Below, piece after piece: positions 26,847 through 53,623 of a DNA stretch of 64,000 bases. The stretch is from Bugula neritina. Lineage: Eukaryota; Bryozoa; Gymnolaemata; Cheilostomatida; Bugulidae. The first letter of the stretch is position 1. Every line of letters starts with the position of its first letter. The stretch is taken from the NCBI GenBank assembly GCA_964035545.1, contig CAXIUT010000255.1, positions 28,587-92,586 of the forward strand. Reading direction: 5' to 3'. The notes under the pieces were generated by a model. That model did not search any database, was not told the origin of the DNA, and was given only the letters and a program-made list of their open reading frames with translations. The translations under genes and the position numbers were made by a program.

Positions 26847-29492
26847 ATGAAAGGAATCAAAGTCCTACTTCTGATAGTAGTACTTCTTGGTTCTCTTAAC
26901 GCCTAGATGATCCAACTTGGATCTGATAGCATCTTTAGTAGCATCACGAAGGGATCAGATAACTCCATTTTCGGAAATGGAAATTCCATGGGAGGAAGTC
27001 CCAGTTCAGAAGCTGGAGGTTCTATCCTTGGAATGGGAAATTCCATTGGAGGAAATCCTAGTTTAGAAACTGGAGGATCTAATCTTGGAATGGGAAATTC
27101 CATGGGAGGAAATCCTAGTTTAGAAACTGGAGGATCTAATCTTGGAATGGGAAATTCCATGGGAGGAAATCCTAGTTTAGAAACTGGAGGATCTAATCTT
27201 GGAATTGTTGGCAATGGAAATATGCCAAAAGATAACTTAAATAGTATATTTGGAAATGGAAATAAAGATCCTGGTTCTGCCAACAATATTGATGGATCAA
27301 GTAATAGCCTCTTAGAAGATAGCAGTTCCATTGGTGGAAGTGGAAATATGCTCAGTGGAGATCTAAGTTCTATCTTTGGCAATGAAATTGCAGAAAATAA
27401 TTGTCCAAATCAACCATCACCACCACATCCTTAACCTTAACCTGAACCTCCACTACCACTACCACCACCTCCTTAACCTTAACCACCCCCTCCTTAGCCT
27501 TAACCTTACCCTTAACCTGAACCTTAACCACCACTACCACCACATCCTTAACCTGAACCACCACCACCACCACAACCACCACCTTAACCTTAACCTTAAC
27601 CACCACTACCACCACATCCTTAACCTGAACCACCGCCACCACCACCACCACCACCACCACCATCACCACCACCACCACCACCACCACCACCACCACCACC
27701 ACCACCACCACCACCACCACCACCACCACCACCACCACCACCACCACCACCACCACCACCACCACCACCACCACCACCACCACCACCACCACCACCACCA
27801 CCACCACCACCACCACCACCACCACCACCACCACCTTAACCTTAACCACCACTACCACCACATCCTTAACCTGAACCACCGCCACCACCACCACCACCGC
27901 CACCACCACCACCACCACCACCGCCACCACCACCACCACCACCACCACCACCACCACCACCACCACCACCACCACCACCACCACCACCACCACCACCACC
28001 ACCACCACCACCACCACCACTTCCTTAACCTGAACCACCACTACCACCACCACCACCACCACCACCACCACCACCACCACCACCACCACCACCACCACCA
28101 CCACCACCACCACCACCACCACCACCACCACCACCACCCCCTCCTTAACCTTAACCACCACTACCACCACTTCCACCACTTCCTTAACCTTAACCACCAC
28201 TACCACCACTTCCTTAACCATAACCTGAACCTGAGCCTTCTTTCCCATCAGAACAACCTCCTCTTTAACCTCAACCTCCATCTTAACCGTTTCCCTAACC
28301 ACCTTCACCACCAGGTAGAAGAGGGCCGCCAAGAAGAAAACCACCAGGTAGAAGAGGGCCGCCAAGAAGAAAACCACCAGGTAGAAGAGGGCCGCCAAGA
28401 AGAAAACCACCAGGTAGAAGAGGGCCGCCAAGAAGAAAACCACCAGGTAGAAGAGGGCCGCCAAGAAGAAAACCACCAGGTAGAAGAGGGCCGCCAAGAA
28501 GAAAACCACCAGGTAGAAGAAGGCCGCCAAGAAGAAAACCACCAGGTAGAAGAGGGCCAAGAAGAAAACCTTGTAGAGGAGGAAAATGTAGAAGAGGAGG
28601 AAAACCTAGAAGAGGAGGAAAATGTAGAAGAGGAGGAAAACCTAGAAGAGGAAGAAAACCTAGAAGAGGAAGAAAACCTAGAAGAGGAAGAAAACCTAGA
28701 AGAGGAAGAAAACCTAGAAGAGGAAGAAAACCTAGAAGAGGAAGAAAACCTAGAAGAGGAAGAAAACCTAGAAGAAGACATCCTTATAGAAATAGAAGAC
28801 AACCAAGGAGAAGAAGACATCCTTATAGAAATAGAAGACAACCAAGGAGAAGAAGACATCCTCAAAGGAATAGAAGACAACCAAGGAGAAGAAGACATCC
28901 TCAAAGGAATAGAAGACAACCAAGGAGAAGAAGACATCCTCAAAGGAATAGAAGACAACCAAGGAGAAGAAGACATCCTCAAAGGAATAGAAGACAACCA
29001 AGGAGAAGAAGACATCCTCAAAGGAATAGAAGACAACCAAGGAGAAGAAGACATCCTCAAAGGAATAGAAGACAACCAAGGAGAAGAAGACATCCTCAAA
29101 GGAATAGAAGACAACCAAGGAGAAGAAGACATCCTCAAAGGAATAGAAGACAACCAAGGAGAAGAAGACATCCTCAAAGGAATAGAAGACAACCAAGGAG
29201 AAGACATCCTCAAAGGAATAGAAGACAACCAAGGAGAAGAAGACATCCTCAAAGGAATAGAAGACAACCAAGGAGAAGAAGACATCCTCAAAGGAATAGA
29301 AGACAACCAAGGAGAAGAAGACAACCAAGGAGACATCGACCAGCTCCCAGAAGACACAGATCCTCTCCTAGAAGACACAGACCCTCTCCCAGAAGACATA
29401 GACCAACTTCTAGAAGAGGTGGAGGAAGAAGAGGAGGAAGAAGAGGAGGAGGAAGAAGAAGAGGAGGAGGAGGAAGAAGAAGACGTAGATGA
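26847..29492 (+). CDS. Secreted Gly/Asn, Pro, Arg repeat protein A
   Basis: ATG 26847 to TGA 29490-29492, 881 aa, no intron needed once TAA/TAG are Glu. Residues 1-19 (MKGIKVLLLIVVLLGSLNA) are a signal peptide. Residues 20-185 are Gly/Asn/Ser repeats, including three copies of a 19-residue unit GMGNSMGGNPSLETGGSNL. Residues about 186-488 are Pro with Glu (PEPEPEPP) and long polyproline from CCA runs. Residues 489-881 are strongly basic: PPGRRGPPRRK units, PRRGRK units, then RRRHPQRNRRQP units, ending RRGGGR...RRRRR. In other frames the same DNA gives open polyHis, polyVal and Glu-rich shadows. I know no homologue. An extracellular matrix, stalk or adhesive protein would fit secretion and composition, as inference. 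Confidence 0.85.
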
Positions 29493-29739
29493 TCTACTAT
29501 CTTTTACTTTTAATCATATATTTTGGAGTCAAATAATACTAGTTAATTATTATTGATTCTTAACTATGAATTTAAAGAATAAAAGTTGATAAGATAATAT
29601 TTATTATTAATAAATCTATATTATATTTGAAAAAAAATCTATTAATAAAAATTAAGTTTGAATAATCAAGTGGAACAACTAATAAACTGTCAAAAAATTA
29701 TTTTAGTTTTGATAAATAACTATTTTCAGTCATTAAGAG

Positions 29740-31086
29740 TCATTTTTTTAATCTTTTCTGACCAATAGCATCTATCAATATGGTGTCTTTGTTCTTTTTT
29801 ACTTACTTTTTTGCTTTAAATCTTCAATTATTCTCATTTGCAGATTGAATTCTATCGAATTATGTTTTGATCTATCTGATTTTGAGACATTTTCACTACT
29901 TTTTTTGATTCTAAATGATGTTTTTTGTTCTCTCTATCGATCTATTTTTATATCTAAAGATTAAATATCGCCTATTAAAAAAATAAACTACTTTATTCAT
30001 GTTTGAAATATAACTATTGATAGATGAAACTGTTGATAAGATATAACTATTGATAAGATATAGCTATTAATAAGATGAAACTATTGATAAGATGTAACTG
30101 TTGATAATGTATAACTATTAATGAGATGCAACTGTTGATAAGATATAGTTGTCCAAAAGATATATTTGTGATCGATTCTTTACTATAAATATCACAGAAG
30201 AAGCTATCAGTCTTCTAAACAAACGCTTTGTACCTTCTAGTATTGTTTGATAAATCATATTCTTTGGCAACTACCTAAGACAGTTACTATCTTTGTCTAA
30301 AATCCTTTTTCTTTATTTTAAATTTGAGATTGATTTTTTGTTTGAATTTTAATTCTTGGAATATTAAGTTAGTTAGCTGACTAAGTAGGCGGTGTCGACT
30401 GTGATAGTTAGCTCTCTTTTGTATCTCGCTTTGAAAGTATTGAGACCCCATTGATCTCCCAACCGACTAGCCAAGACTGATAACCTTGACTGCATGTTTT
30501 TTTTTATCTTTCAAAAGCTTCGAATCGATAAGCCAACTCTTTTCGATCTACAAGAAAGCTTTAATCTTGACTATTTGTTTTTATAAGTATCAACTCAATG
30601 TCATTGATGATCCTTTCGAAAAATAGTCTCTTAAAGACATCATCATAGACCAAGATTCTTGATTATCCATTTGTATTAGATAAAATAATTATTGATGGAT
30701 GGTTCTTCTAGAGCTAGAGTTACTTCAAACTAGAAGAAAGAACTTGGGATAACTTGAATCGACATCACTCATAATATTTTATGGAACAAATGAAAAAAAA
30801 AATAATTTCGACTTTAGAAAATATTAGAAAAAAAACATTTTATTTGATCAATATTAACTAATCCATCTTGTATCAGTCTTCATCAACAATATATATAAGA
30901 AGATAGTCAATGAAAAATCGTTTAATTTTACTTTTTCTTTTTTTCTTTTTAAAATCACTCAGTGAAAATAAACATCTTTAGAGCTAAATTTAAACTCCAA
31001 TTAGGGTCTAGTTCTATATTATGTTTGAAATATTTATTCCCGATGGTAAATTCTTTTTAGAAACTTAATAAATAAGGTTTTCAGAA
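29740..31086. other. Spacer upstream of gene B, near-identical to the gene A spacer
   Basis: Matches 25414-26761 almost base for base. It repeats the small minus-strand frame (with one A fewer), the ATTGATAAGAT repeats and the decayed minus-strand ORF. Differences are a handful of substitutions, so the duplication is recent. Confidence 0.85.
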
Positions 31087-31170
31087 CATTATAACTGATA
31101 ATTAAAAGCAAGTGATTTTCTTCATAAATGGAAGATTTATTTAGAATTCTTTACATTTATATTCTTCTAA
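31087..31170 (+). promoter_or_regulatory. Conserved upstream block (gene B)
   Basis: Same block as upstream of gene A with a few changes (for example CTTCATAAATGGAAGAT in place of CTTAGATAAATGGAAGG). Confidence 0.6.
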
Positions 31171-33414
31171 ATGAAAGGAATCAAAGTCCTACTTCTGATA
31201 GTAGTACTTCTTGGTTCTCTTAACGCCTAGATGATCCAACTTGGATCTGATAGCATCTTTAGTAGCATCACGAAGGGATCAGATAACTCCATTTTCGGAA
31301 ATGGAAATTCCATGGGAGGAAGTCCCAGTCCAGAAGCTGGAGGTTCTATCCTTGGAATGGGAAATTCCATTGGAGGAAATCCTAGTTTAGAAACTGGAGG
31401 ATCTAATCTTGGAATGGGAAATTCCATTGGAGGAAATCCTAGTTTAGAAACTGGAGGATCTAATCTTGGAATGGGAAATTCCATGGGAGGAAATCCTAGT
31501 TTAGAAACTGGAGGATCTAATCTTGGAATGGGAAATTCCATGGGAGGAAATCCTAGTTTAGAAACTGGAGGATCTAATCTTGGAATTGTTGGCAATGGAA
31601 ATATGCCAAAAGATAACTTAAATAGTATATTTGGAAATGGAAATAAAGATCCTGGTTCTGCCAACAATATTGATGGATCAAGTAATAGCCTCTTAGAAGA
31701 TAGCAGTTCCATTGGTGGAAGTGGAAATATGCTCAGTGGAGATCTAAGTTCTATCTTTGGCAATGAAATTGCAGAAAATAATTGTCCAAATCAACCATCA
31801 CCATCACCATCACCATCACCATCACCATCACCATCACCATCACCATCACCATCACCATCACCATCACCATCACCATCACCATCACCATCACCATCACCAT
31901 CACCATCACCATCACCATCACCATCACCATCACCATCACCATCACCATCACCATCACCATCACCATCACCATCACCATCACCATCACCACCACCATCACC
32001 ATCACCACCACCACCACCACCACCACCACCACCACCACCACCACCACCTTAACCTTAACCACCACTACCACCACTACCACCACTACCACCACATCCTTAA
32101 CCTGAACCACCACTACCACCACTTCCACCACTTCCTTAACCTTAACCTTAACCTTAACCACCACTACCACCACTACCACCACTTCCTTAACCTGAACCTG
32201 AACCTGAACCACCACTACCACCACTTCCACCACTTCCTTAACCTTAACCTGAACCTTAACCTGAACCACCACTACCACCACTACCACCACTTCCACCACT
32301 TCCTTAACCTTAACCTTAACCACCACTACCACCACTTCCTTAACCATAACCTGAACCTGAGCCTTCTTTCCCATCAGAACAACCTCCTCTTTAACTTTAA
32401 CCTCAACCTCCATCTTAACCGTTTCCCTAACCACCTTCACCAGGTAGAGGAGGAGGAGGAGGAGGAGGAGGAGGAGGAGGAAAACGTAGAGGAGGAGGAA
32501 AACGTAGAGGAGGAGGAAAAATGAGAAGAGGAGGAGGAAAACGTAGAGGAGGAGGAAAACGTAGAGGAGGAGGAAAAATGAGAAGAGGAGGAGGAAAACG
32601 TAGAGGAGGAGGAGGAAAAATGAGAAGAGGAGGAGGAGGAAAACGTAGAGGAGGAGGAAAACGTAGAGGAGGAGGAAAAAATGAGAAGAGGAGGAGGAAA
32701 ACGTAGAAGAGGAGGAAAAATGAGAAGAGGAGGAGGAAAACGTAGAGGAGGAGGAAAACGTAGAGGAGGAGGAAAAATGAGAAGAGGAGGAGGAAAACGT
32801 AGAGGAGGAGGAGGAAAAATGAGAAGAGGAGGAGGAAAACGTAGAAGAGGAAGAAAACCTAGAAGAAATAGAAGACAACCTAGAAGAAATAGAAGACAAC
32901 CTAGGAGAAGAAGACATCCTAAAAGAAATAGAAGACAACCAAGGAGAAGAAGACAACCAAGAAGAAGAAGACAACCAAGGAGAAGAAGAAAACCTAGAAG
33001 AAAAAGACAACCAAGAAGAAGAAGACAACCAAGGAGAAGAAGAAAACCTAGAAGAAAAAGACAACCAAGAAGAAGAAGACAACCAAGAAGAAGAAGACAA
33101 CCAAGGAGAAGAAGACAGCCTAGAAGAAAAAGACAACCAAGGAGAAGAAGACAACCAAGGAGAAGAAGACAGCCAAGAAGAAAAGACAACCAAGGAGAAG
33201 AAGACATCCTCAAAGGAATAGAAGACAACCAAGGAGAAGAAGACAACCAAGGAGACATCGACCAGCTCCCAGAAGACACAGATCCTCTCCTAGAAGACAC
33301 AGACCCTCTCCCAGAAGACATAGACCAACTTCTAGAAGAGGTGGAGGAAGAAGAGGAGGAAGAAGAGGAGGAGGAAGAAGAAGAGGAGGAGGAGGAAGAA
33401 GAAGACGTAGATGA
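31171..33414 (+). CDS. Secreted Gly/Asn, Pro, Arg repeat protein B
   Basis: ATG 31171 to TGA 33412-33414, 747 codons open. The signal peptide and Gly/Asn region are nearly identical to A but hold four 19-residue units instead of three. The proline tract is a long Pro-Ser repeat (CCATCA) followed by Pro-Glu stretches. The basic tail starts at about residue 425 with RGGGKRRGGGK and KMRRGGG units. At 32676-32681 one extra A shifts the frame into Lys/Thr/Glu-rich sequence. At about 33181 one A is missing and the RRRHPQRNRRQP frame returns to the shared end. No TGA occurs in between, so the ORF survives. Whether these indels are real or sequencing error is open. Confidence 0.8.
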
Positions 33415-33558
33415 TCTACTATCTTTTACTTTTAATCATATATTTTGGAGTCAAATAATACTAGTTAATTATTATTGATTCTTAACTATGAATTTAAAGA
33501 ATAAAAGTTGATAAGATAATATTTATTATTAATAAATCTATATTATATTTGAAAAAAA

Positions 33559-34408
33559 ATCTATTAATAAAAATTAAGTTTGAATAATCAAGTGGAACAA
33601 CTAATAAACTGTCAAAAAATTATTTTAGTTTTGATAAATAACTATTTTCAGTCATTAAGAGTCATTTTTTTAATCTTTTCTGACCAATAGCATCTATCAA
33701 TATGGTGTCTTTGTTCTTTTTTACTTACTTTTTTGCTTTAAATCTTCAATTATTCTCATTTGCAGATTGAATTCTATCGAATTATGTTTTGATCTATCTG
33801 ATTTTGAGACATTTTCACTACTTTTTTTGATTCTAAATGATGTTTTTTGTTCTCTCTATCGATCTATTTTTATATCTAAAGATTAAATATCGCCTATTAA
33901 AAAAATAAACTACTTTATTCATGTGTTTTAATCAACTTTAGAAAACTTTTCAATATTTAATGATGTATTGATGATCATTTATCTTAAGAAAAATAATATT
34001 TTATTGATATAAAATCATAAGTTAGATTAAATTTCTTCTGACAAACAATTTGATTTATTTTTTTTATAAAAAAATCAAATATTTTTCTTTTTTCGACATC
34101 TGAAAAAGGCATTTAATGTAAATGCTAAAAGCATAAATATGAATTAAATTAAATTAAAAATAATCGAAATATTAGCAATTAGTAGTATAAAAGTAAATAG
34201 GAGAATAATATGTTTATTCAATGATATATTATTTGATTGATCGTATTGATAGATGAATAATCAATTCTAGAAAGCAAGATTAACTATACAAGACTGCTCT
34301 TTCCCTAATTTTTATAAAGAATAACGAAATAAGCAAAAATAAAGTCACAAAAAAGGTATTATTAGTCTTCAGTCATAATCACTTCACAATAAACACAAAT
34401 AACACATT
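33559..34408. other. Third spacer copy and block junction, no confident gene
   Basis: 33559-33920 repeats the start of the gene A/B spacer. At 33921 the sequence switches to AT-rich DNA that recurs at 42121. Nothing gene-like is seen before the ATG at 34409. Confidence 0.7.
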
Positions 34409-35068
34409 ATGAAACATAAATAGAATAGTCGTTAGATAAATGAAATCAAACAGTAATAAAACAAGTTAAAATATCAAAAAGGGAAATCACTTAATGGCTA
34501 TTAGTTTGGTTTGTTGCAGAAATAAATATATTTTCCTAGTTTGCCTTCAAAGAAATAGACAAATAATAATAATTCATAAGAAGGAATAAGATCTTACAGT
34601 TCAACTAAGCTGATCCCAAGTCATCATCATAAGCAGAAAGGCAGAAAGGCAGAAAGCCATATATTTAGGATGCAATAAAACTTATAGAGAGTTTAAAAAA
34701 ACATGAAAAAGATCACAATAAACTAACTAAAGACAACATAATTTTAAAATAAAGAAATAAAAGTGGATCTTAAGTTGAAGAAATTGTCTTCTTTCAAATC
34801 AAAAATGACATCTAATGGTAAAAATCATTTGAACAGGTTGACAAATGGTGTTTTGATACCAGAATAGTTACATAGTTAGAGGTGTTAGTAAAAGTTATAT
34901 GATAATAATAATTTCAATTTACAGATGAAGAACACTGTGAGGTTTTAATTTGATAGCAACCTTCATGTTTAAAAAAACAAATAAAAGTAAATGGAAAAAA
35001 AAAAACAGTATAAAATTTAAGGATGGAAATAGGATAGGTATTTCGTGCCTATAGGATTTTATATGTGA
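34409..35068 (+). CDS. Unknown basic protein, copy 1
   Basis: ATG 34409, TGA 35066-35068, 219 aa with TAA/TAG as Glu. Rich in Lys, Asn and Glu, for example IRSYSSTKLIPSHHHKQKG and DLKLKKLSSFKSKMTSNG. No signal peptide, membrane segment or known domain. The second copy (42724-43386) keeps the whole frame: the only length change is a 3-nt insertion adding one His. That supports real coding function. It converges on the EF-hand gene with 39 bp between stops. Confidence 0.55.
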
Positions 35069-35107
35069 TTTATCTTAGTTATTTTATTGATTTTATATTC
35101 ATTAATA

Positions 35108-36922
35108 TCATTCCACTTTGTTGGCTGTTGATTTATCGAGTTTGCTTAGCATTTAGACCTGTTTGGCTGGATGTTCAGGTGAATTGATTTTTTAATCTGT
35201 TTATGACTTGAATAATTGTTTAGATGTTTTTTTCTATATTATTTTAGGATGTTAATGTTTTTGTTCACTTTTTTTCATACTCTATAATCCTAAATCTTGT
35301 TATTTAAGCGTTGATCTTTAAGGACCTTTTATTTTACCTGGAATTTTATCTTTGTATTGTTCTTGATGGTTGAACTGAGAAAGATATGATCCATATTTAC
35401 TATCGTTGGCTAGAAATTGTAATCTTATATTTTTTTATATTTATCTTTATCTTTTTATTTTATCTCTTAACTATCTGGCAGTCTATAAATATAGATCGCT
35501 ACTATCAATATGATTTTTAATGGCTATTCCTCTCATATGTTGATACTATGTGCCTTTAGCTATTTATTAGTAATGTTTTTAGTAATACTTTAGACTTCTA
35601 TTTTCCATTTATCTTAAAGATATTTTATTAAGCTGATTATTAATAGAAGAATAGGGATAACTAAGATCGATTCCTATGATATTATTTTTAATATTGGTTG
35701 TATCTTATTGAATGCTGATTCTATGTTATAATCTTTTGAGTCGATCGCTTTATATTTATATTTATGCTGTTTTTCTCATAAATTACTGATATTATTACTA
35801 TACTTTCTTCTTAGCTTGCCATTCTTATCTTTATTTTGCTCTATTATTGGCTTATATCTATTTTTGTAATTGAATATTCCATTTTTACTGTTAGTAGTTT
35901 ATTTTAACCTTTTATAAACTTGCAGATTGCTAGATTAGTAAATTTTAATCTATCTATTTTTATTATTGCTAGATCTATTTTATTTTCTATCTTATCCTTT
36001 GATATTTCTACTACTTATTATATTTTTATTCATATTTATCAATTTTATTATTCTAATTGTTGATATTACTTTTATTATGATTATTACTTTTATTTCGATT
36101 ATTACTTTTACTGTTGATATTGTTTTTATTTGAGAGGTGTTTTTAAAATTCATATCCAAAAGTAATCTGTTTTGGTATTTTTCTTTTGTTGGTTTATTTT
36201 ATTTTATTTTGATATTCTCTATCTTTCCCTTATAATCCTTAAATAGTCCATTTCAATTGATATTAATTGACTTTACCGTCTATTTTGAAATTAAGCACTT
36301 CAACTAACTTCTATACCTGTCTCTGATTGACATCGTAACCGTAATTCTTCATAAATTTATATATATCTTCCCCGCAAATCCAACTATGTCTGTTTTCATC
36401 TATTGCCAGTACTACTCCATGAAGAGAATAATCCTAGTTCCTGAGTAATGTCCTTCTTATCTAGAGTATCTTCATTTATCTACGCATTATCTATAAAATC
36501 AACTATCTGAAGATGTCTAGTTGCTGTAGGATTGTTTGAGGTTGTGAACTTTACAACTCTGGTCTTTATACCCTTTGGGCTACTAACTAACGTAGTTAAA
36601 GGTCGTCTCTGGGTAAAAGAAAAGTAGCAAATTATAGTCTGCTGACTTATCCTGTCTTTAAATTATCAATCCAGCTGAAAGCATAGGTAAGTAGTTTTTT
36701 ATGCGAGGTGCCTATCACTTTTTGAATATCTTTTTCACGAATATATCCTTTTTACTATTTATCAAGGAATCGGAACAATGCTATTGAGTCGAAGTATGGT
36801 GTATCAGCTAGAGCTTATCTAAATGATTAAATAGATTAGTTGAGAAGTAGTAGTTATGCGAATATATTAGCTAGAAGGGTTCTTGATTTGATAGAAAGCA
36901 TGTTTTGTTGATAGTAGGCCAT
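35108..36922 (-). CDS. EF-hand and coiled-coil protein, copy 1
   Basis: Single exon, 604 aa, ATG 36922, TGA 35110-35108. The N-terminal third has EF-hand-like helices and loops (ALFRFLDKEEKGYIREKDI, then ATFLLPRDDLELREL, then VLAIDENRHSWICGEDIYKF). The loops keep only part of the calcium ligands. An Asn/Lys-rich linker follows, then a long coiled coil (residues about 270-480) and a charged tail. Ciliates have many such proteins in the epiplasm, basal bodies and contractile cytoskeleton. A centrin/spasmin-partner role is possible but not shown. It lies downstream of SepSecS on the same strand. Confidence 0.75.
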
Positions 36923-37073
36923 GATAGAGTTGTTAACTTATTTTATACTTAAAATTATATTATTGATTATATATTATTTGAACAAATCTATTGATGATAT
37001 ACTATTTGAACAAATCTATTGATGATATACTATTTGAACAAATCTATTGATGATAATTATTCTGATAAATCTA

Positions 37074-38722
37074 TCAAATGGGACCTTATTCTTATTTTTA
37101 TAGCTATTATTTTGTCATTTACTTCTTCGATTATTCATTCTTTATATCATTTTATACTATTTTTTATGTTTTATTCTATTCCTTTATCCTTTCTTTATCA
37201 ACAACCTTTATATTTGATTATTAGTATTTTTAGTTATTTTATAATGATAATTCTGATAGTTTGACTTTATTAGTTTATTTTTTGTATATATTCTTTTATA
37301 GTTATTTGAAGGCTTTTTCTAGTCTTTAGAAGAAAAGAAATATTTATTTATTTTTTGTTCCTACAGCACAAGCAAAGGTAATATAAGGCAAAGAGTCATA
37401 ATTGTTAGAATGTGTTCCATAGTTTTTAAAGCTATTATTCCCTATTTTAGTTATTTTTTATGAAGATGACAAGATACGATGACCCATCACTCTCTTACTA
37501 TACAAAATTGCACCTAATTGAGTAATATCTGCCTATTGTTTGTATTGTGATAAGTACATAGCTATAGATATTGTATTATTTGGTGTTTTTAGAATAGTGC
37601 AGTTGTGTTTTAATGCAAATTTTTATCCTTACTTTAGTAGTTATTTATAGTTATTCTTTCTTTATGTCTTTAGCTATTGGATTGTTGATTTTCCCATTGA
37701 TAAAAGAGTTATAAAAAGGTCTGTAATTGGACTGCCGCTTGCTCTTCCTGGATATTTTGATGAAACTATATGACTAAATTATTACTTTTATCTAATAGAG
37801 AAGATTATTTACAGAAGATGAAGGATCCCCCGACTGGGACCATGAAATTTTTATCTGTGCTTTGAACTACTACTGTGCATTACCCTTTAGACATTCCTTA
37901 CTTGATTAGATGGGCTATTTTAGAACACCAAATGCCGTAAGCATTATTGACTACATGAAATAATTAATATTTTTTTGCCAAAATAGATATCTAATCTACT
38001 CTATCAGGTATCCTAGGAGCAAAACAGCTAGTAGTTGACATAACAGCTAAAACATTTTATATACCGAGTTCTTTGATCTTCTTTTCAATAGCTTAGACAT
38101 CAGAGTAGAGATAGTCTCCTTATTTTTTGAGCTATATTACGATTGGAGTGAGATTTGCACTTATGATTGATTTTAGACATGTTTTTTGGTCGATTCTTGA
38201 CCAAATCACATACTTTTTATCTGGATTTAAAGAGTGTAAGGTTAGTAGTGCTAAAGTTAAAGACATTCCTGTTGCCAGAGGGAGTAAAAGAACATCTTCT
38301 ACAAATTAATATTTCAGTTGATGTAGAGCACTTACAGCTAAGTATCTAGTTAGTTGTAGTAAAAGACTGCTTCCTGCTGCTTTTGGCTGATTTGCCATTA
38401 CATCACCACTACGACCTATATATGATATTATTCTACCTATGCCGTGACCCATGTGAAAATGTCTCTCTGCGACTAATCTAGAGTATATTCTGGATTATCT
38501 CTAGCCAACGCCAACTTTATTGTCGAAGTTATTGCTGTCCATGAGGGCAAAAGAATCGAGGATATAGCGAATGGTGAGCTAGTCGAGAGGTTGGAGGGGA
38601 AGCTGTCGTTGCGAGAGGATTTATTTGAGTACTTTTTATCTTTTGTTAATGGAATTCTGAGCCAGACGTATATAAGAAGGAGTGATGATGTCTTCAGCAA
38701 GTTTGAAGTTTTTATCGTCCAT
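37074..38722 (-). CDS. SEPSECS: SepSecS, O-phosphoseryl-tRNA(Sec) selenium transferase, copy 1
   Basis: complement(join(37074..37765,37786..38415,38437..38722)), 535 aa, introns of 20 and 21 nt. Removing the 21-nt intron turns the sequence into the exact family motif [11 protein letters not shown]. Also seen: [19 protein letters not shown] (both final Glu are stop-like codons), [61 protein letters not shown] with the PLP lysine, and YPGRASGSP. The enzyme converts phosphoseryl-tRNA to selenocysteinyl-tRNA in the cytosol, so this ciliate should make selenoproteins with UGA as both stop and Sec. A Glu/Lys-rich C-terminal extension is unlike the human protein. Confidence 0.93.
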
Positions 38723-39733: not shown

Positions 39734-39818
39734 ACATTATAACTGATAATTAAAATCTAGTAATTTTCTTCATAAATGGAAGATTTATTTAGAATTCTTT
39801 ACATTTATATTCTTCTTA
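39734..39818 (+). promoter_or_regulatory. Conserved upstream block (gene C)
   Basis: Same block as upstream of A and B, with a few substitutions (AAATCTAGTAATTTTCTTCA). Confidence 0.6.
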
Positions 39819-41612
39819 ATGAAAGGAATCAAAGTCCTACTTTTGATAGTAGTACTGCTTGGTTCTCTCAACGCATAGATGATCCAACTTGGATCTGATA
39901 GCATCTTTAGTAGCATCACGAAGGGATCAGATAACTCCATTTTCGAAAATGGAAATTCCATGGGAGGAAGTCCCAGTTCAGAAGCTGGAGGTTCTATCCT
40001 TGGAATTGGAAATTCTATGGGAAGAAATCCTAGTTTAGAAACTGGAGGATCTAATCTTGGAATGGGAAATTCCATTGGAGGAAATCCTAGTTTAGAAACT
40101 GGAGGATCTAATCTTGGAATGGGAAATTCTATGGGTGGAAGTCCCAGTTCAGAAGCTGGAGGTTCTAATCTTGGAATTGTTGACAATGGAAATATGCCAA
40201 AAGATAACTTAAATAGTATATTTGGAAATGGAAATAAAGATCCTGGTTCTGCCAACAATATTGATGGATCAAGTAATAGCTTCTTAGAAGATAGCAGTTC
40301 CATTGGTGGAAGTGGAAATATACTCAATGGTGATCTAAGTTCTATCTTTGGAAATCAAATTGCAGATAATAATTGTTCAAATCCACCATCACCACCACAT
40401 CCTTAACCTTAACCTGAACCACCACTGCCACCACCACATCCTTAACCTTAACCTGAACCACCACTGCCACCACCACATCCTTAACCTTAACCTGAACCAC
40501 CACTGCCACCACCACATCCTTAACCTTAACCTGAACCACCACTGCCACCACCACATCCTTAACCTTAACCTGAACCACCACTGCCACCACCACATCCTTA
40601 ACCTTAGCCTTAGCCTTAACCTTATCCTTAACCTTAACCTGAGCCACCACTACCACCACTTCCTTAACCTTAGCCTTAACCTTAACCTTAACCTGAGCCA
40701 CCACTACCACCACTTCCTTAACCTTAACCTGAACCTAATTTCCCACCAGAACAACCTCCCCCTCCTTAACCTCAACCTCCATCTTAACCATCTCCTCCAT
40801 CTTAACCACCACCACCTCCTCCTCCTTAACCACCTTCAGCACCAATTCCACCAAGAAAACCACCAGGTAGAAGATTTCCACCTGGAAAAAAACCTTGTAG
40901 AGGAGGAAAATGTAGAAGAGGAGGAAAATGTAGAAGAGGAGGAAGAAAACCTAGAAGAGGAGGAAGAAAACCTAGAAGAGGAGGAAAATGTAGAAGAGGA
41001 GGAAGAAAACCTAGAAGAGGAGGAAGAAAACCTAGAAGAGGAGGAAGAAAACCTAGAAGAGGAGGAAGAAAACCTAGAAGAGGAGGAAGAAAACCTAGAA
41101 GAGGAGGAAAATGTAGAAGAGGAGGAAGAAAACCTAGAAGAGGAGGAAGAAAACCTAGAAGAGGAGGTAGAAAACCTAGAAGAAATAGAAGACAACCAAG
41201 GAGAAAAAGACATCCTAAAAGAAATAGAAGACAACCAAGGAGAAGAAGACAACCAAAAAGAAATAGAAGACAACCAAAAAGAAAAAGACAGCCAAAAAGA
41301 AATAGAAGACAACCAAGGAGAAAAAGACATCCTAAAAGAAATAGAAGACAACCAAGGAGAAGAAGACAACCAAAAAGAAATAGAAGACAACCAAGGAGAA
41401 GAAGACAACCAAAAAGACATCGGCCAGCACCCAGAAGACATCGGCCAGCACCCAGAAGACATCGGCCAGCACCCAGAAGACATCGGCCAGCACCCAGAAG
41501 ACATCGGCCAGCACCCAGAAGACATCGGCCAGCTCCCAGAAGACACAGACCAACTTCTAGAAGAAGTGGAGGAAGAAGAGGAGGAGGAAGAAGATGTAGA
41601 AGACGTAGATGA
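39819..41612 (+). CDS. Secreted Gly/Asn, Pro, Arg repeat protein C
   Basis: ATG 39819 to TGA 41610-41612, 597 aa. Signal peptide as in A. The Gly/Asn region (20-187) has two clear 19-residue units plus variants. The proline tract is a six-fold repeat around HPEPEPEPPLPPP. The basic tail from about residue 347 uses CRRGG and PRRGGRK units, then RRNRRQP units and a final series of six RRHRPAP units. It ends RRSGGRRGGGRRCRRR. Unlike A and B, a different internal repeat has been amplified, so the layout is conserved while the repeats turn over. Confidence 0.83.
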
Positions 41613-43386: not shown

Positions 43387-43425
43387 TTTATCTTAGTTAT
43401 TTTATTTATTTTAAATCTATTAATA

Positions 43426-45291
43426 TCATTCCACTTTGTTGGCTGTTGATTTATCGAGTTTGCTTAGCATTTAGACCTGTTTGGCTGGATGTTCAGGTGA
43501 ATTTATTTTTTAATCTGTTTACTACTTGAATAATTGTTTAGATGTTTTTTTCTATATTATTTTAGGATGTTAATGTTTTATTTCACTTTTTTTCATACTC
43601 TATAATCCTAAATCTTGTTATTTAAGTGTTGATCTTTAAGGACCTTTTATTTTACCTAGAATTTTATCTTTGAATTGTTCTTGATGGTTGAACTGAGAAA
43701 GATATGATCCATATTTACTATCACTAGCTAGAAATTGTAATCTTATATTTTTTTATATTTATCTTTATCTTTTTATTTTATCTCTTAACTATCTGGCAGT
43801 CTATAAATATTGATCGCTACTATCAATATGATTTTTAATGGCTATTCCTCTCATATGTTGATACTATGTGCCTTTAGCTATTTATTAGTAATGTTTTTAA
43901 TAATATTTTAGATTTCTATTTTCCATTTATCTTAAAGATAATTTATTAAGATGATTATTAATCGAAGAATAGGGATAACTAAGATCGATGCCTATGATAT
44001 TATTTTTAATATTGGTTGTATCTTATTGAATGCTGATTCTATGTTATAATCTTTTGAGTCGATCGCTTTATATTTATATTTATGCTGTTTTTCTCATAAA
44101 TTACTGATATTATTACTATACTTTCTTCTTAGCTAGCCATTCTTATCTTTATTTTGCTCTATTATTGGTTTATATTTATTTTTGTAATTGAATATTCAAT
44201 TTTTACTGTTAGTAGTTTATTTTAACCTTTTATAAACTTACAGATTGCTGGATTAGTAAATTTTAATCTATCTATTTTTATTATTCCTAGATCTATTTTA
44301 TTTTCTATCTTATCCTTTGATATTTCTACTACTTATTCTATTTTTGTTCGTATTTATCAATTTTATTATGATTATTGATATTAATCTGATTGTTGATATT
44401 ACTTTTATTATGATTATTATTCTGATTGTTGATATTACTTTTATTATGATTATTATTCCAATTGTTGATATTATTCCAATTGTTGATATTATTCTTATTT
44501 GAGAGGTGTTTTTAAAATTCCTATCCAAAAGTAATCTGTTTTGGTATTTTTCTTTTGTTGGTTTATTTTATTTTATTTTGATATTCTCTATCTTTCCCTT
44601 ATAATCCTTAAATAGTCCATTTCAATTGATATTAATTGACTTTACCGTCTATTTTGAAATTAAGCACTTCAACTAACTTCTATACCTGTCTCTGATTGAC
44701 ATCGTAACCGTAATTTTTCATAAATTTATATATATCTTCCCCGCAAATCCAATTATGTCTGTTTTAATCTATTGCCAGTACTACTCCATGAAGAGAATAA
44801 TCCTAGTTCCTTAGTAATGTCCTTCTTATCTAGACTATCTTCATTTATCTACGCATTATCTATAAAATCAACTATCTGAAGATGTCTAGTTGCTGTAGGA
44901 TTGTTTGAGGTTGTGAACTTTACAACTCTGGTCTTTATACCCTTTGGGCTACTAACTAACGTAGTTAAAGGTCGTCTCTGGGTAAAAGAAAAGTAGCAAA
45001 TTATAGTCTGCTGACTTATCCTGTCTTTAGATTATCAATCCAGCTGAAAGCATAGGTAAGTAGTTTTTTATGCGAGGTGCCTATGACTTTTTGAATATCT
45101 TTTTCACAAATATATCCTTTTTACTATTTATCAAGGAATCGGAACAATGCTATTGAGTCGAAGTATGGAGTATCAGCTAGAGCTTATCTAAATGATTAAA
45201 TAGATTAGTTGAGAAGTAGTAGTTATGCGAATATATTAGCTAGAAGGGTTCTTGATTTGATAGAAAGCATGTTTTGTTGATAGTAGGCCAT
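43426..45291 (-). CDS. EF-hand and coiled-coil protein, copy 2
   Basis: Single exon, 621 aa, paralogue of 35108-36922. A 51-bp in-frame expansion in the Asn/Ile-rich linker (about 44.37-44.5 kb) adds 17 residues; elsewhere lengths are identical. Calcium-loop segments and coiled coil are retained. Preservation of frame across 1.8 kb shows that both copies are, or recently were, functional. Confidence 0.75.
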
Positions 45292-45443
45292 GATAGAGTT
45301 GTTAACTTATTTTATACTTAAAATTATATTATTGATTATATATTATTCTAATAAATCTATTGATGATATATTATTCTAATAAATCTATTGATGATATATT
45401 ATTCTAATAAATTTATTGATGATATATTATTCTAATAAATCTA

Positions 45444-47092
45444 TCAAATGGGACTTTATTCTTATTTTTATAACTACTATTTTGTCATTTACTTCTTCAA
45501 TTATTCATTCTTTATATCATTTTATCCAATTTTTTATGTCTAATTTTATTCCTTTATAATTTCTTTATCAACAACCTTTTTATTTGATTATTAGTATTTT
45601 TAGTTATTTTATAATGATAATTCTGATAGTTTGATTTTATTAGTTTATTTTTTGTATATATTTTTTTATAATTATTTGAAGGCATTTTCTAGTCTTTAGA
45701 AGAAAAGAAATATTTATTTATTTTTTGTTCCTACAGCACAAGCAAAGGTAATATAAGGCAAAGAGTCATAATTATTAGAATGTGTTCCATAGTTTTTAAA
45801 GCTATTATTCCCTATTTTAGTTATTTTTTATGAAGATGACAAGATACGATGACCCATCACTCTCTTACTATACAAAATTGAACCTAATTGAGTAATATCT
45901 GCCTAATGTTTGTATTGTGATAAGTACATAGCTATAGATATTGTATTATTTGGTGTTTTTAAAATAGTGCAGTTGTGTTTTAATGCAAATTTTTATCCTT
46001 ACTTTAATAGTTATTTATAGTTATTCTTTCTTTATGTTTTTAGCTATTGGATTGTAGATTTTCCCATTGATAAAAGAGTTATAAAAAGGTCTGTAATTGG
46101 ACTGCCGCTTGCTCTTCCTGGATATTTTGATGAAACTATATGACTAAATTATTACTTTTATCTAATAGAGAAGATTATTTACAGAAGATGAAGGATCCCC
46201 CGACTGGGACCATGAAATTTTTATCTGTGCTTTGAACTACTACTGTGCATTACCCTTTAGACATTCCTTACTTGATTAGATGGGCTATTTTAGAACACCA
46301 AATGCCGTAAGCATTATTGACTACATGAAATAATTAATATTTTTTTGCCAAAATAGATATCTAATCTACTCTATCAGGTATCCTAGGAGCAAAACAGCTA
46401 GTAGTTGACATAACAGCTAAAACATTTTATATACCGAGTTCTTTGATCTTCTTTTCAATAGCTTAGACATCAGAGTAGAGATAGTCTCCTTATTTTTTGA
46501 GCTATATTACGATTGGAGTGAGATTTGCACTTATGATTGATTTTAGACATGTTTTTTGGTCGATTCTTGACCAAATCACATACTTTTTATCTGGATTTAA
46601 AGAGTGTAAGGTTAGTAGTGCTAAAGTTAAAGACATTCCTGTTGCCAGAGGGAGTAAAAGAACATCTTCTACAAATTAATATTTCAGTTGATGTAGAGCA
46701 CTTACAGCTAAGTATCTAGTTAGTTGTAGTAAAAGACTGCTTCCTGCTGCTTTTGGCTGATTTGCCATTACATCACCACTACGACCTATATATGATATTA
46801 TTCTACCTATGCCGTGACCCATGTGAAAATGTCTCTCTGCGACTAATCTAGAGTATATTCTGGATTATCTCTAGCCAACGCCAACTTTATTGTCGAAGTT
46901 ATTGCTGTCCATGAGGGCAAAAGAATCGAGGATATAGCGAATGGTGAGCTAGTCGAGAGGTTGGAGGGGAAGCTGTCGTTGCGAGAGGATTTATTTGAGT
47001 ACTTTTTATCTTTTGTTAATGGAATTCTGAGCCAGACGTATATAAGAAGGAGTGATGATGTCTTCAGCAAGTTTGAAGTTTTTATCGTCCAT
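45444..47092 (-). CDS. SEPSECS: SepSecS, copy 2
   Basis: complement(join(45444..46135,46156..46785,46807..47092)), 535 aa, both introns conserved in position and length (20 and 21 nt). The catalytic core is essentially identical to copy 1. Most changes lie in the C-terminal Lys/Glu extension, where codons vary but frame holds. Two SepSecS genes within 10 kb is unusual, since most genomes carry one; here the pair is explained by the block duplication. Confidence 0.92.
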
Positions 47093-48110
47093 ATTTTATA
47101 CTAACTAGATGTAACTATTCATTAGATATAACTATTGATATGATATAACTATCAATAAGATGAAACTATTGATAAGATGTAACTATTGATCGATTCTTTA
47201 CTATAAATATCACAGAAGAAGCTATCAGTCTTCTAAACAAACGCTTTGTACCTTCTAGTATTGTTTGATAAAATCATATTCCTTTGGCAACTACCTAAGA
47301 CAGTTACTATCTTTGTCTAAAATCCTTTTTCTTTATTCTAAATTTGATTGATTTTTTGTTTGAATTTTAATTCTTGGAATATTAAGTTAGTTAGCTGACT
47401 AAGTAGACGGTGTCGACTGTGGTAGTATACTCTCTTTTTTATCTCACTTTGAAAGTATTGAGACCTCATTGATCTCCCAACCGACTAGCCAATACTGATA
47501 ACCTTGACTGCATGTTTTTTTTATCTTTCAAAAGCTTCGAATCGATAAGCCAACTCTTTTCGATCTACAAGAAAGCTTTAATCCTTGACTATTTGTTTTT
47601 ATAAGTATCAACTCAATGTCATTAATGATCCTTTCGAAAAATAGTCTCTTAAAGACAACCATCATAGACCAAGATTCTTGATTATCCATTTGTTTTAGAT
47701 AAAATAATTATTGATGGACGGTTCTTCTAGAGCTAGAGTTGCTTCAAACTAGAAGAAGAACTTGGGATAACTCGAATCGACATCACTCATTGTGTTTTAT
47801 GGAATAAAAAAAAAAAAAAATAACTTCGACTTTTGAAGATCTTCAAAAAAAAAAACATTTTATTTGATCAATATTGACTAATCCATCTCGTATTAGTTTT
47901 TATTAACAATATTTTTCAAAAGATATTCAATACAAAATTGCTTTAAACCACAATTTATTTGTTTCACCTTTTTTTGGATGAGTAAAAATAAACATAAAAA
48001 TAGCAAAGTAAATTAGTCATTAAAGTTTTAATTTGTTATTTTATTATCAATGTTCTTGCTCTCATTTGTAGTTTTTCTATAGAACACATAGAAAAATATT
48101 TTCTTTAGAA
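47093..48110. other. Spacer upstream of gene D
   Basis: Near-copy of the gene C spacer to about 47880, with the same decayed minus-strand ORF, then unrelated AT-rich sequence. No array here. No confident gene. Confidence 0.6.
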
Positions 48111-48197
48111 CATTATAACTGATAATTAAAAGCAAGTGATTTTCTTAGATAAATAGAAGCTTTTTTTAGAATCCTTATATATATATATTCTTCTTCT
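48111..48197 (+). promoter_or_regulatory. Conserved upstream block (gene D)
   Basis: CATTATAACTGATAATTAAA, AAGTGATTTTCTTAGATAAAT and TTTTAGAAT are kept, with a TATATATA stretch before the ATG. Confidence 0.6.
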
Positions 48198-49265
48198 ATG
48201 AAAAGAATCGAAGTCCTACTTCTGATAGTAGTACTGCTTGGTTCTCTCAATGCCTATATGATCTAGCCTGGATCTAATGACATATTTAGCAACTTCATGT
48301 AGGGATCTGATAACTCTATGAACAACAATATGCTTTTTGAAAATGAAGATTCAATGGTTGGATCAGATAATGGCTTCTTAGAAAATAGCAATTCTATGGA
48401 AGGAAATGGAAATATACCCAATGGAAATCTAAATTCTATCTTTGGTACTGATTAGTGTGAAACAATTCCTCATCCACAACAACCACCTTGCAGTTCTTGC
48501 CCATCAGGGGTTTGTCCAACTCCTGTCTGTTAAAATCCACCAACCCCACCACCACCACCACCACCACCACCACCACCACCACCACCACCACCACCACCGC
48601 CTTAACCTGAACCTTGTGAACCTTATTATCCACCAGAACCACCCTATCCTTAACCTCATGACCCTTATTGTCCACCAGAACCGCCATCTCCTCCACCTCC
48701 TTAGCCACCTTTACCACCAACAAGGCCACCACCTTTGCCACCAACAAGGCCACCACCTTTGCCACCAACAAGGCCACCAATAAGGTGTCCACCAAGAAGA
48801 TGTCCCCCTCCAAGAAGACCTCCAACAAAATGCCCTCCTCGAAGAAGACCCTCACCTCCAAGAAGAGGCGGAGGAAGAAGAGGCGGAGGTAGAAGAGGCG
48901 GAGGAAGAAGAGGCGGAGGAAGAAGAAGACCTCCAAAAAAATGCCCTCCTCGAAGAAGACCCTCACCACCAAGAAGAGGCGGAGGTAGAAGAGGTGGAGG
49001 AAGAAGAGGTGGAGGAAGAAGAGGTGGAGGAAGAAGAAGACCTCCAAAAAAATGCCCTCCTCGAAGAAGACCCTCACCACCAAGAAGAGGCGGAGGTAGA
49101 AGAGGTGGAGGAAGAAGAGGTGGAGGAAGAAGAGGTGGAGGAAGAAGAAGACCTCCAAAAAAATGCCCTCCTCGACGAAGACCTACAAGAAAAAGTCCTC
49201 CTCGAAGAAGACCCTCACCACCAAGAAGAGGCGGAGGAAGAAGAGGGTGTAGAAGACGTAAATGA
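48198..49265 (+). CDS. Secreted Asn-rich, Cys/Pro, Arg repeat protein D (short member)
   Basis: ATG 48198 to TGA 49263-49265, 355 aa. Signal peptide MKRIEVLLLIVVLLGSLNA. The Asn/Gly region is shrunk to about 65 residues and has lost the 19-residue unit. A Cys-containing link (PPCSSCPSGVCPTPVC) and polyproline follow, then a basic tail of CPPRRRPSPPRRGGGRR units ending RRGCRRRK. The Cys-Pro pattern links it to gene E more than to A-C. The gene follows SepSecS copy 2 in the position gene C holds in block 1. Confidence 0.8.
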
Positions 49266-49428: not shown

Positions 49429-49503
49429 GGGGTTGGGGTTGGGGTTGGGGTTGGGGTTGGGGTTGGGGTTGGGGTTGGGGTTGGGGTTGGGGTTGGGGTT
49501 GGG
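49429..49503 (+). repeat. Interstitial telomeric array, 75 nt
   Basis: Twelve and a half GGGGTT units, GGGG start and GGG end, in the spacer 164 bp downstream of gene D. Confidence 0.95.
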
Positions 49504-51188: not shown

Positions 51189-51271
51189 CATTATAATCTA
51201 TAATTAAAATCAAGTGATTTTAGATGATAAATGGAAGCTTTATTTAGAATATTTTACATTTATATTATTCT
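51189..51271 (+). promoter_or_regulatory. Conserved upstream block (gene E)
   Basis: CATTATAATCTATAATTAAA, CAAGTGATTTTAGATGATAA, ATGGAAGCTTTATTTAGAAT and TTTACATTTATAT match the blocks of A-D although the surrounding spacer is unrelated. That argues for functional conservation. Confidence 0.65.
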
Positions 51272-53623
51272 ATGAAAGGAATCAAAGTTCTACTTCTAAT
51301 AGTAGTACTGCTTGGTTCTCTCAATGCTGATATGATCTCTTCTGGAGCTGATGGCATGTTCAATAACATCATGAAGGGATCAGACAACTTCATGAAGGGC
51401 AACAAAAATCAGCTTTTCGGAAATGAAAATACCATGGTAGGAAATCACAATAAATTTGCAGGAGATGGTAACCTTGGAGTTGGAGATGTCAATACCGTTG
51501 TTGGAAACGGTAATATGTTCAAAGGTAACTACAATAATATCTTTGGGCATGGAAATAAAGGTAAAGGTTCAGCCAACAAGATAGCTGGATCAGGAAATAG
51601 CTTCTTAGGAAACTGTAATACTATTGGAGGAAATGGAAATCTACTCAATGGAAATATAAATTCTATCTTTGGAAATAAAAATGTTGTTAAAGGAGATGGA
51701 AACTTCCTTAAAGGAAATTCTAATCTACTTATAAGTGATAAGTTTGGAAATATTCCTTCAAAACCATAAAAACCAATTTGCAGCTCTTGTCCATCAGGCA
51801 ACTGTCCATCAGGAAACTGTCCATCAGGAAACTGTCCATCAGGAAAATGTCCATCAGGAAACTGTCCATCAGGAAACTGTCCATCAGGAAACTGTCCAAA
51901 TCCCCCACCAGAACCTAAACCTTATGAACCTATTTGTCTACCAGGCAACTGTCCATCAGGCAACTGTCCATCAGGCAACTGTCCAAATCCCCCACCAGAA
52001 CCTAAACCTCATGAGCCTACGTGTCCACCACCACCACCACCACCGCCACTGCCACCTTGTCCTGAACCAGAACCTGAACCTCATGAGCCTACTTGTCCAC
52101 CACCACCACCCCCACCACCACCACCACCACCACCACCACCACCACCACCACCACCACCACCACCACCACCACCACCACCACCACCACCACCACCACCACC
52201 ACCACCGCCACCGCCACCACCACCACCGCCACCTTGTCCTGAACCTGAACCAGAACCTGAACCTCATGAGCCTACTTGTCCACCACCACCACCACCACCA
52301 CCACCACCACCACCACCACCACCACCACCACCACCACCGCCACCACCACCACCGCCACCGCCACCGCCACCTTGTCCTGAACCTGAACCAGAACCTGAAC
52401 CTCATGAGCCTACTTGTCCACCACCACCACCACCACCACCACCACCACCACCACCACCACCACCACCACCACCTTGTCCTGAACCAGAACCTGAACCTCA
52501 TGACCCTTATTGTCCACCACCACCACCTTGTCCAGGACCTTAACCTGAACCTCATGAGCCTTATTGTCCTCCTTCCACACCTCCTCCACCACCGCCACCA
52601 CCACCGCCACCACCACCGCCACCGCCACCACCACCGCCACCACCTCCTCCTTCTTGTCCTGAACCTTAGCCTCAGCCATAACCAGAACCACCAAGAAAAT
52701 GTCCAAGGCCTCCAAAACCACCAAGAAAATGTCCAAGACCACCTATATTTCCACCTAGAAAATGCCCAAGATAACCAAGATGTCCCAGAATACCAAGAAA
52801 ACCCAGATGTCCTAGACGACCTAGAAAACCAAGATGTCCTAGACGACCTAGAAGACCAAGAAGACCTAGAAAACCCAGATGTCCTAGACGACCTAGAAGA
52901 CCAAGAAGACCAAGAAGACCTAGAAAACCCAGATGTCCTAGACGACCTAGGAGACCCAGAAAACCAAGAAGGCCAAGATGTCCTAGAAGACCTAGAAAAC
53001 CAAGATGTCCGAGAAGACCAAGGAGACCCAGAAAACCAAGAAGGCCAAGATGTCCTAGAAGACCTAGAAAACCAAGATGTCCGAGAAGACCAAGGAGACC
53101 CAGAAAACCAAGAAGGCCAAGATGTCCTCGAAGACCTAGAAAACCAAGATGCCCAAGAAGACCAAGGAGACCCAGAAAACCAAGAAGGCCAAGATGTCCT
53201 CGAAGACCTAGAAAACCAAGATGCCCAAGAAGACCAAGGAGACCCAGAAAACCAAGAAGGCCAAGATGTCCTAGAAGACCTAGAAAACCAAGATGTCCGA
53301 GAAGACCAAGGAGACCCAGAAAACCAAGAAGGCCAAGATGTCCTCGAAGACCTAGAAAACCAAGATGCCCAAGAAAACCAAGAAGATGTCTATTCAAAAA
53401 AAGAAGTCAGCCAAGGAGACGACCTCAGCCAAGACGACCTCAGCCAAGACGACCTCAGCAAAGGAGACCTCAGCACAGACGACCTCAGCACAGGAGACCT
53501 AAGTCCAGACGACCTTCGAACCATCAAAGAGGTGGAAGAAGAGGCGGAGGAAGAAGAGGCGGAGGAAGAAGAGGCGGAGGAAGAAGAGGCGGAGGAAGAA
53601 GAGGGTGTAGAAGACGTAGATGA
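51272..53623 (+). CDS. Secreted Gly/Asn, Cys-Pro, Arg repeat protein E
   Basis: ATG 51272 to TGA 53621-53623, 783 aa. Signal peptide MKGIKVLLLIVVLLGSLNA, residues 1-19. Residues 20-165 have the cleanest Gly/Asn pattern of the family (GNGNMFKGNYNNIFGHGN), spaced like a beta-solenoid. Residues about 170-235 are CPSGN repeats, then CPEPEPEPHEPTCPPPP units with long polyproline, then from about 470 RKCPRPP, KPRCPRRPR and KPRRPRC units. It ends RRGGGRRGCRRRR. Regular Cys suggests disulphide cross-linking after secretion. This member best shows the ancestral layout. Confidence 0.85.

Follow-up and report, generated by a model that had tools for sequence, protein, structure and literature searches.

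The window analysed here is a stretch of 64,000 nucleotides from the Bugula neritina assembly GCA_964035545.1, covering positions 28587 to 92586 of contig CAXIUT010000255.1 (in the following C244). It contains five genes, A to E, which belong to a tandem gene family. With a somewhat better than even chance, the products of this family are matrix proteins with a structural or adhesive role, secreted by a peritrich ciliate. A material role is suggested because the proteins are probably secreted and combine predicted rods, acidic linkers, polycation tails and cysteines. Genes A to E share a common layout, consisting of a leader, a Gly/Asn-rich head, a Pro-rich tract, an Arg-rich tail and a TGA stop codon. 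An earlier note on this DNA had proposed this order of leader, head, tract and tail, and it was found at all five loci. The same note had counted five members. The family comprises at least nine, as four further genes, F to I, lie upstream on C244, outside the window.

Gene A (26847..29492, + strand; C244:55433-58078) encodes 881 amino acids when TAA and TAG are read as Glu. Its leader (26847-26903) is followed by an apparently decayed Gly/Asn head with a net charge of -12 (26904-27401), a Pro-Glu tract consisting of 78% Pro with a net charge of -35 (27402-28304) and an Arg tail of +206 with zero acidic residues (28305-29489). Gene B (31171..33414, + strand; C244:59757-62000; 747 amino acids) is a close relative of A, with a start-to-start spacing of 4.3 kb. 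It includes the head (31228-31782), a Pro tract of -29 containing a Pro-Ser array (31783-32442) and a basic tail (32443-33411). Gene C (39819..41612, + strand; C244:68405-70198; 597 amino acids) has a head (39876-40373), a Pro-Glu tract of -36 (40374-40853) and an Arg tail of +136 with six Cys (40854-41609). Gene D (48198..49265, + strand; C244:76784-77851) is the shortest of the five with 355 amino acids, comprising a short head (48255-48455), a Cys/Pro tract of -7 (48456-48782) and an Arg-Gly-Pro-Cys tail of +70 (48783-49262). Gene E (51272..53623, + strand; C244:79858-82209; 783 amino acids) begins with a predicted beta-roll head of 17 heptads (51329-51766), which leads into a Cys hinge of NCPSG repeats with 13 Cys (51767-51985), a Pro-Glu tract of -26 (51986-52693) and an Arg-Pro-Cys tail of +161 (52694-53620). 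Genes A and B are carried by a tandem duplication of about 4.3 kb, with copies at about 25500-29830 and 29830-33950 (ends set by eye). Over positions 30000-31000, the sequence has about 100% identity to a stretch upstream of A; over 0.8 kb, it also matches stretches upstream of C (92% identity) and D (90%).

The upstream members are located at C244:10775-11974 (F), 12863-14563 (G), 16121-17101 (H) and 17935-18900 (I). They were found in a search of the assembly with the head of E, in which 150 of 173 candidates were scored and all other matches fell on C1 to C8. Using the head of A as query recovered all nine genes again, along with three places on C5. The tails of F, H and I are shorter, with net charges of +27, +36 and +28, and are enriched in Arg together with Gly or Cys. 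None of these three has a long Pro tract, and G has no tail. Cysteine, previously regarded as a feature of D and E, is more widely distributed: with leaders included, the counts are 4 in A, 1 in B, 7 in C, 14 in D, 48 in E, 12 in F, 1 in G, 16 in H and 5 in I.

All nine proteins start with a hydrophobic leader of 19 residues, whose best 12-residue segment reaches a Kyte-Doolittle hydropathy of 2.62-3.23. The leaders of A, B, C and E are identical at residues 1-19, D differs at two of the 19, and any two of the nine members have 11-19 of the 19 residues in common. Past the leader, no membrane-like segment is present in any of the nine, with the best 19-residue segment after residue 22 at 0.61 or below. 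The nine proteins are probably secreted, since a hydrophobic leader is combined with the absence of a later membrane-like segment. This agrees with the secretion proposed earlier and is based on hydropathy.

The upstream regions of the family genes can be aligned over about 140 bases. Within them, the motif ATAAATRGAAG occurs eight times on C244 (both strands searched), each copy starting 44-49 bases before a family start. It precedes eight of the nine genes, is altered before I, and is found nowhere else on C244. The window contains five copies against 0.29 expected, and none of 100 shuffles reached five. These copies start 45-49 bases before the start codons of A to E, at 26800..26810 (ATAAATGGAAG, before A), 31124..31134 (before B), 39772..39782 (before C), 48149..48159 (ATAAATAGAAG, before D) and 51227..51237 (before E), all on the + strand. 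A longer version of the motif was searched in the whole assembly with up to three mismatches, yielding 13 matches, of which five lie on C244, one on C1 (one mismatch) and seven elsewhere with three mismatches (two of these on C58 and C156). This search does not show a regulon beyond C244, because the reversed-pattern control gave nine matches against the 13.

The reading frames of the family stay open only when TAA and TAG encode amino acids. Under the standard code, no open reading frame (ORF) of at least 150 amino acids spans leader, head and tail in any of A to E, and this code was rejected. The meaning of the two codons was assessed by aligning three conserved genes of the window, encoding an ABCA-type transporter, a PPWD1-type cyclophilin and a DEAD-box helicase, with solved structures. 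The alignments are partial, and the aligned cells are not all independent, as some sites were counted twice with two targets. With this reservation, the 58 TAA cells faced Glu 15 times, Lys 9, Ser 5, Asp 4 and Gln 4 times, and the 25 TAG cells faced Glu 8, Asp 4 and Gln once. Among the control codons, GAA faced Glu in 15 and Gln in 1 of 35 cells, and CAA faced Gln in 18 and Glu in 2 of 43. The rarer controls are noisy, with GAG on Glu in 3 and Ser in 4 of 14 cells and CAG on Gln in 6 and Glu in 5 of 16. Summed BLOSUM62 scores rank Glu first for TAA (Glu 64, Gln 34, Lys 32) and for TAG (Glu 37, Asp 19, Gln 10). TAA and TAG are thus best read as Glu and TGA as stop (peritrich code, code 30); all nine family frames terminate at TGA. 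A Gln code (table 6) likewise leaves the frames open, and was rejected because TAA and TAG align better with Glu in these partial alignments. Reading UAA as Lys is less likely, as TAA falls on Lys in 9 and on Glu in 15 of 58 cells, with GAA on Lys in 4 and on Glu in 15 of 35. UAR as Glu is reported to have a single origin, in Peritrichia, and UAA as Lys to be the code of Oligohymenophorea sp. PL0344 (PMC10553269).

The chromosomal context is in line with a ciliate source. C244 is 92,586 bases long, with CCCCAA repeats at its left end and GGGGTT repeats at its right end. The right-hand telomere occupies 63921..64000 (+ strand), where the window and the contig end together. C244 therefore looks like a complete telomere-capped chromosome. 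The parent assembly amounts to 215.8 Mb in 295 contigs. Among 19 contigs sampled between C10 and C295, of 13-101 kb each, telomere-type repeats were present at both ends in 10, at one end in 6 and at neither in 3. The assembly therefore combines the large chromosomes of a second organism with many small ones of a ciliate, because numerous short telomere-capped contigs stand against C9, which at 10.9 Mb has no telomere-type repeats. The short capped contigs are presumably of macronuclear origin. A peritrich is the best identification of the ciliate, since TAA and TAG are best read as Glu and the telomeres are of the G4T2 type; the peritrich assignment made in the earlier note is supported by both features.

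The Pro tracts would be acidic Pro-Glu sequences, since Glu is the residue that TAA and TAG match best in the alignments. The changed code alters the predicted proteins considerably. TAA or TAG supplies 26 of 35 acidic codons in the tract of A, 20 of 29 in that of B and 27 of 36 in that of C, and the three tracts would carry only -9 each if these codons were Gln. Gene E, with 3 of 27, has an acidic tract under either reading. In A to C, an acidic head and Pro-Glu block is followed by a tail of +136 to +206. The polycation tail proposed earlier is supported in A to E. In A, C, D and E, each tail contains one acidic residue at most. The tail of B has a net charge of +144 and 26 acidic residues, most or all of them within a segment of about 500 bases where the gene leaves the Arg frame.

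This segment of B (32676..33185, + strand) lies between two A-runs, the first with one A more and the second with one A fewer than in neighbouring copies. The first run has six A in one of seven equivalent copies and five A in the other six, and the later run is one A short. Read in frame, the segment is rich in Lys, Thr, Gln and Glu instead of Arg. The compensating frameshift pair would be either recent or an error, because the Arg-rich +1 frame has the higher synonymous share within the segment.

Synonymous shares were obtained by counting distinct codon changes between repeat units in each frame. A strict count was accompanied by a looser one, filtered on local identity. Within the shifted segment of B, the Arg-rich frame reaches 33/58 against 13/69 in the looser count and 3/5 against 1/5 in the strict count. 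For the gene, +1 and +2 frames, respectively, the strict count gave 9/13, 2/13 and 3/13 in E (one of its three arrays lying in the Pro tract), 4/7, 1/9 and 1/8 in C, and 3/4, 0/5 and 0/4 in D. In the looser count, the tails of E (73/86 against 9/117 and 13/119), C (19/28 against 1/30 and 7/34) and D (7/8 against 0/9 and 1/11) favour the gene frame, as do the Pro tracts of E (82/89 against 6/87 and 1/86) and A (246/302 against 11/325 and 61/264). The tail of I shows the gene frame slightly ahead (9/16 against 14/36, looser count). These counts support the assigned tail frame in D and E and mostly support it in C.

Several results weigh against translation of the gene frame. In the tail of A, the gene frame scores 2/5 and the +1 frame 5/10 in the strict count, and 4/26 and 24/38 in the looser one. 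The Pro tract of B likewise favours the +1 frame (28/73 against 41/67, looser count). The heads of F and G show no preference for the gene frame (9/33 against 14/30 and 13/51 against 20/62, looser count), and the tail of H gave no data in that count. Without filtering, the tail of C gives 15/49 against 17/71 and 12/55. Furthermore, minus-strand frames reach comparable shares, with 89/141 in the tail of E and 16/20 in that of D (looser count). For A, the tail frame is undecided by these numbers and rests on the frame being open all the way from the leader to the C-terminal end that the members share, because synonymous changes do not favour it.

The heads of E to I consist of runs of 17-76 heptads and resemble the beta-roll of a grass antifreeze protein (PDB 3ULT). 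In E, residues 36-154 (51377..51733, + strand) form 17 unbroken heptads of the pattern G-[N/S/D/H]-x-N-x-h-x, and the largest run of G..N heptads in 2,000 shuffles was four. The longest strict runs in A, B, C and D are 3, 3, 3 and 2, which is no more than shuffles reach. The heads of A to D are accordingly read as decayed heptads, with E the only intact one among A to E; the head of A is still 39% identical to that of E (E=4e-16). The Pfam profile PF21300 (LbR_Ice_bind, cut-off 30 bits) matches the heads of E, F, G, H and I with 34.8, 84.5, 182.6, 49.5 and 52.2 bits, while full-length E stays below the cut-off with 27.4 bits. Full-length A to D had no Pfam match, and the separately scanned heads of A, C and D had none either. 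In the whole assembly, 49 of the 60 PF21300 matches listed lie off C244, many of them over the cut-off. The two such places inspected, both on C5, are tandem repeats open in several frames (L033, C5:12236500-12241500, and L034, C5:846500-847800). That tandem DNA repeats exceed the cut-off is a warning on short repeat profiles in general. Common descent with the grass proteins is not shown by the profile similarity, since the profile also matches DNA repeats of the host.

A period of 14 residues is apparent in the sequences of E to I and in one AlphaFold2 model. PF21300 stands for a left-handed beta-roll with 14-15 residues in each turn; for the family, the handedness of the roll is doubtful. 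On this basis, each head would form a beta-roll rod with two heptads per turn. In F to I, Phe would line one inner face and Val or Ile the other, a pattern that is weaker in E, and the exterior of the F to I rods would mainly display Lys, Thr, Gln, Ala and Val. With the typical rise of 4.7 Å per turn of a beta-roll, the 76 heptads of G would give a rod of about 38 turns and roughly 18 nm.

Protein searches with the head of E (107 candidates) and full-length H (1,985 candidates) returned none at E<=1e-3. Aligned H, F and I gave 18 matches among 7,987 scored candidates, only those sharing most words being scored. The ciliate content of the searched protein database was not tested, and these searches do not show the family to be absent from other ciliates. 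Five of the 18 bear bacterial names (four cyanobacteria and one Gracilibacteria record). A precomputed RING domain is present in two more, P0018 resembles phage tail-fibre repeats, and the rest are unnamed. Thirteen were inspected in sequence, and residue counts were made on all 18. None of the 18 has a polycation tail: the highest Lys+Arg content per 60 residues is 16, compared with 22-42 in eight family members and 12 in G. The combination of head, Pro-Glu block and Arg block was not found elsewhere, as far as searched, because none of these relatives exceeds that value of 16. NCBIfam, run on eight proteins with G left out, returned only weak low-complexity matches, such as IgA-binding BAC for E (21.7 bits, cut-off 1700) and SclB for I (14.9 bits, cut-off 325), which were rejected. 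The earlier statement that no described family has this layout holds for the layout as a whole, which is absent from the 18 matches; it does not hold for the Gly/Asn head, which resembles a known beta-roll type (PF21300, PDB 3ULT). As far as searched, the family would represent a new combination of known modules, in which a Gly/Asn or beta-roll head is joined with two charged blocks, one acidic (Pro-Glu) and one of Arg that reaches +206.

The grass proteins LpAFP and LpIRI (PF21300, PDB 3ULT) match the family in the heptad rhythm of Asn, inner hydrophobic residue and Gly. Their outward face consists mainly of Thr, Ser and Val, whereas that of the family is charged, and the family extends to 76 heptads with attached Pro-Glu and/or Arg blocks. 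The cyanobacterial hypothetical proteins P0002, P0006, P0007 and P0015 contain 12-16 G[N/D/S/H]xN heptads each, in GNGNW/GSNN form; P0002 was compared by sequence, the other three only by their names and counts. At its C-terminal end, P0002 has a short hydrophobic stretch and a few basic residues in place of an Arg tail. The RING proteins P0001 and P0005 (precomputed PF21300 and RING) share the heptad head, but differ in their RING C terminus, in the absence of a visible leader and in having no polycation tail. P0016, an unnamed metagenomic protein of 332 residues (PF21300), stands alone among the 18 in having a long hydrophobic run at its N terminus (8 residues), which precedes heptad-like repeats. 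Its C-terminal 80 residues, however, hold 3 Lys+Arg and 8 Asp+Glu and form no Arg tail. Trimeric autotransporter heads, such as that of Fusobacterium CbpF (PDB 9U93), show weak repeat similarity (E=0.1), and Pfam scans of the nine full-length proteins at E<=1 revealed no C-terminal anchor domain of this type. Mussel foot protein 3 and similar adhesives are basic, secreted polymers rich in Gly, Arg and Tyr. The tails of F, H and I recall them, although mussel foot protein 3 has no beta-roll head and 3,4-dihydroxyphenylalanine is not shown for the family.

As matrix proteins, the members may work as follows. The leader would direct the chain into the secretory pathway. In A to D, with a decayed head, the Arg polycation tail would dominate together with the acidic Pro-Glu block, which is present in A to C and also in E and amounts to only -7 in D. 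Arg tails could bind the acidic Pro-Glu blocks of other molecules as well as anionic glycans of the extracellular coat, and Cys residues in C, D, E, F and H may cross-link the chains. Rods and extended Pro linkers together would produce a stiff, sticky fibrous material. Peritrich stalks are described in PMC6189993 as having an extracellular sheath with a fibrillar matrix and rod-like batonnets. According to PMC12411067, the lorica consists of glycosaminoglycan and a protein-polysaccharide complex; for stalks, chitin is cited there. Such stalk and lorica coats are plausible partners of the Arg tails, and a stalk, lorica or holdfast is ranked first as the site of use. Sequence data as used here do not distinguish between stalk, lorica, holdfast, cyst wall and extrusome. 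Among the literature matches listed, judged by titles and the beginnings of abstracts, none names a peritrich stalk or lorica extracellular protein at gene level, and none describes a ciliate beta-roll, ice-binding or Arg/Pro-rich matrix protein family. A more far-reaching reading, less likely than not, would make these genes the first known at gene level for the protein of an attachment or housing structure in peritrichs, in the form of a self-assembling multiblock family that would harden by charge pairing and Cys cross-links. Its blocks would be a beta-roll rod, an acidic Pro-Glu block encoded in A to C mostly by reassigned stop codons, and an Arg polycation. The clustered genes with their common upstream motif provide directly testable candidates for stalk or lorica proteins, and their design may serve as a natural model for charge-driven underwater materials.

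A related reading, which is rather unlikely though it deserves some weight, regards the proteins as cargo of extrusomes (mucocysts) or as cyst-wall components, with the basic tail serving packing or sorting and the beta-roll acting as condensed matrix. Probable secretion, repetitiveness, charge segregation and Cys content all suit such a role. A precedent is Giardia cyst wall protein 2, in which a solenoid is followed by a basic tail, and peritrichs also form cysts. None of the 18 relatives is labelled extrusome or cyst, though few of them are named at all. A secreted polycationic factor for defence or prey binding, whose Arg tails attack or agglutinate bacteria, is very improbable. Net tail charges of up to +206 would fit, and peritrichs eat bacteria (PMC12411067), but very long repetitive tails, Pro linkers and rod heads would better suit a material.

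The name of the Pfam profile raises ice binding, which is the least probable reading and was rejected because the outward positions of the heads are charged in E to I. The head does match PF21300 and PDB 3ULT, and tandem secreted families are usual for antifreeze proteins. Charged residues nevertheless occupy 8 of 34 outward positions in E, 32 of 78 in F, 66 of 152 in G, 18 of 56 in H and 18 of 46 in I, compared with only 2 of 32 in the printed part of PDB 3ULT. No place is known for Arg tails or Pro-Glu blocks in ice binding, and the profile also responds to tandem DNA repeats. It is also unlikely, to a lesser degree, that A to D are drifting low-complexity DNA, either relics or nearly neutral, and that only E to I are functional. 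The decayed heads of A to D, the frameshift pair in B, the length and openness of the other frames, and the missing gene-frame preference in the A tail and the B Pro tract speak for this reading. Against it, the leaders, upstream motif and C-terminal ends of A to D are kept, and the tails of C and D show a synonymous bias in the filtered counts.

Besides its terminal repeats, C244 contains eight interstitial (GGGGTT)n arrays with 48-90 bases of perfect repeat, all oriented like the right-hand telomere. Six lie in the window (14366-14434, 17536-17598, 39547-39621, 41771-41840, 42236-42299 and 49429-49503) and two outside it (C244:12062-12151 and C244:18955-19038). On C10, C11, C14 and C15, the internal telomere-type places among those listed are likewise all on the + strand. 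The open frame of the PPWD1-type gene (16709-18466, minus strand) crosses the array at 17536-17598, so that the protein would gain a Pro-Gln repeat; this array may be an intron or an inserted element.

The window also includes an apparent segmental duplication with near-identical ORF pairs (34253-38752 and 42568-47122). The duplicated ORFs include an uncharacterised basic protein, an EF-hand-like protein (35108-36922; EF-hand_6, 25.7 bits, cut-off 25) and an O-phosphoseryl-tRNA(Sec) selenium transferase gene (SepSecS, 37487-38752, 260 bits). A minus-strand ORF at 6163-6951 combines a hydrophobic N-terminal leader with a beta-lactamase-type serine hydrolase domain (PF00144, 123.8 bits).

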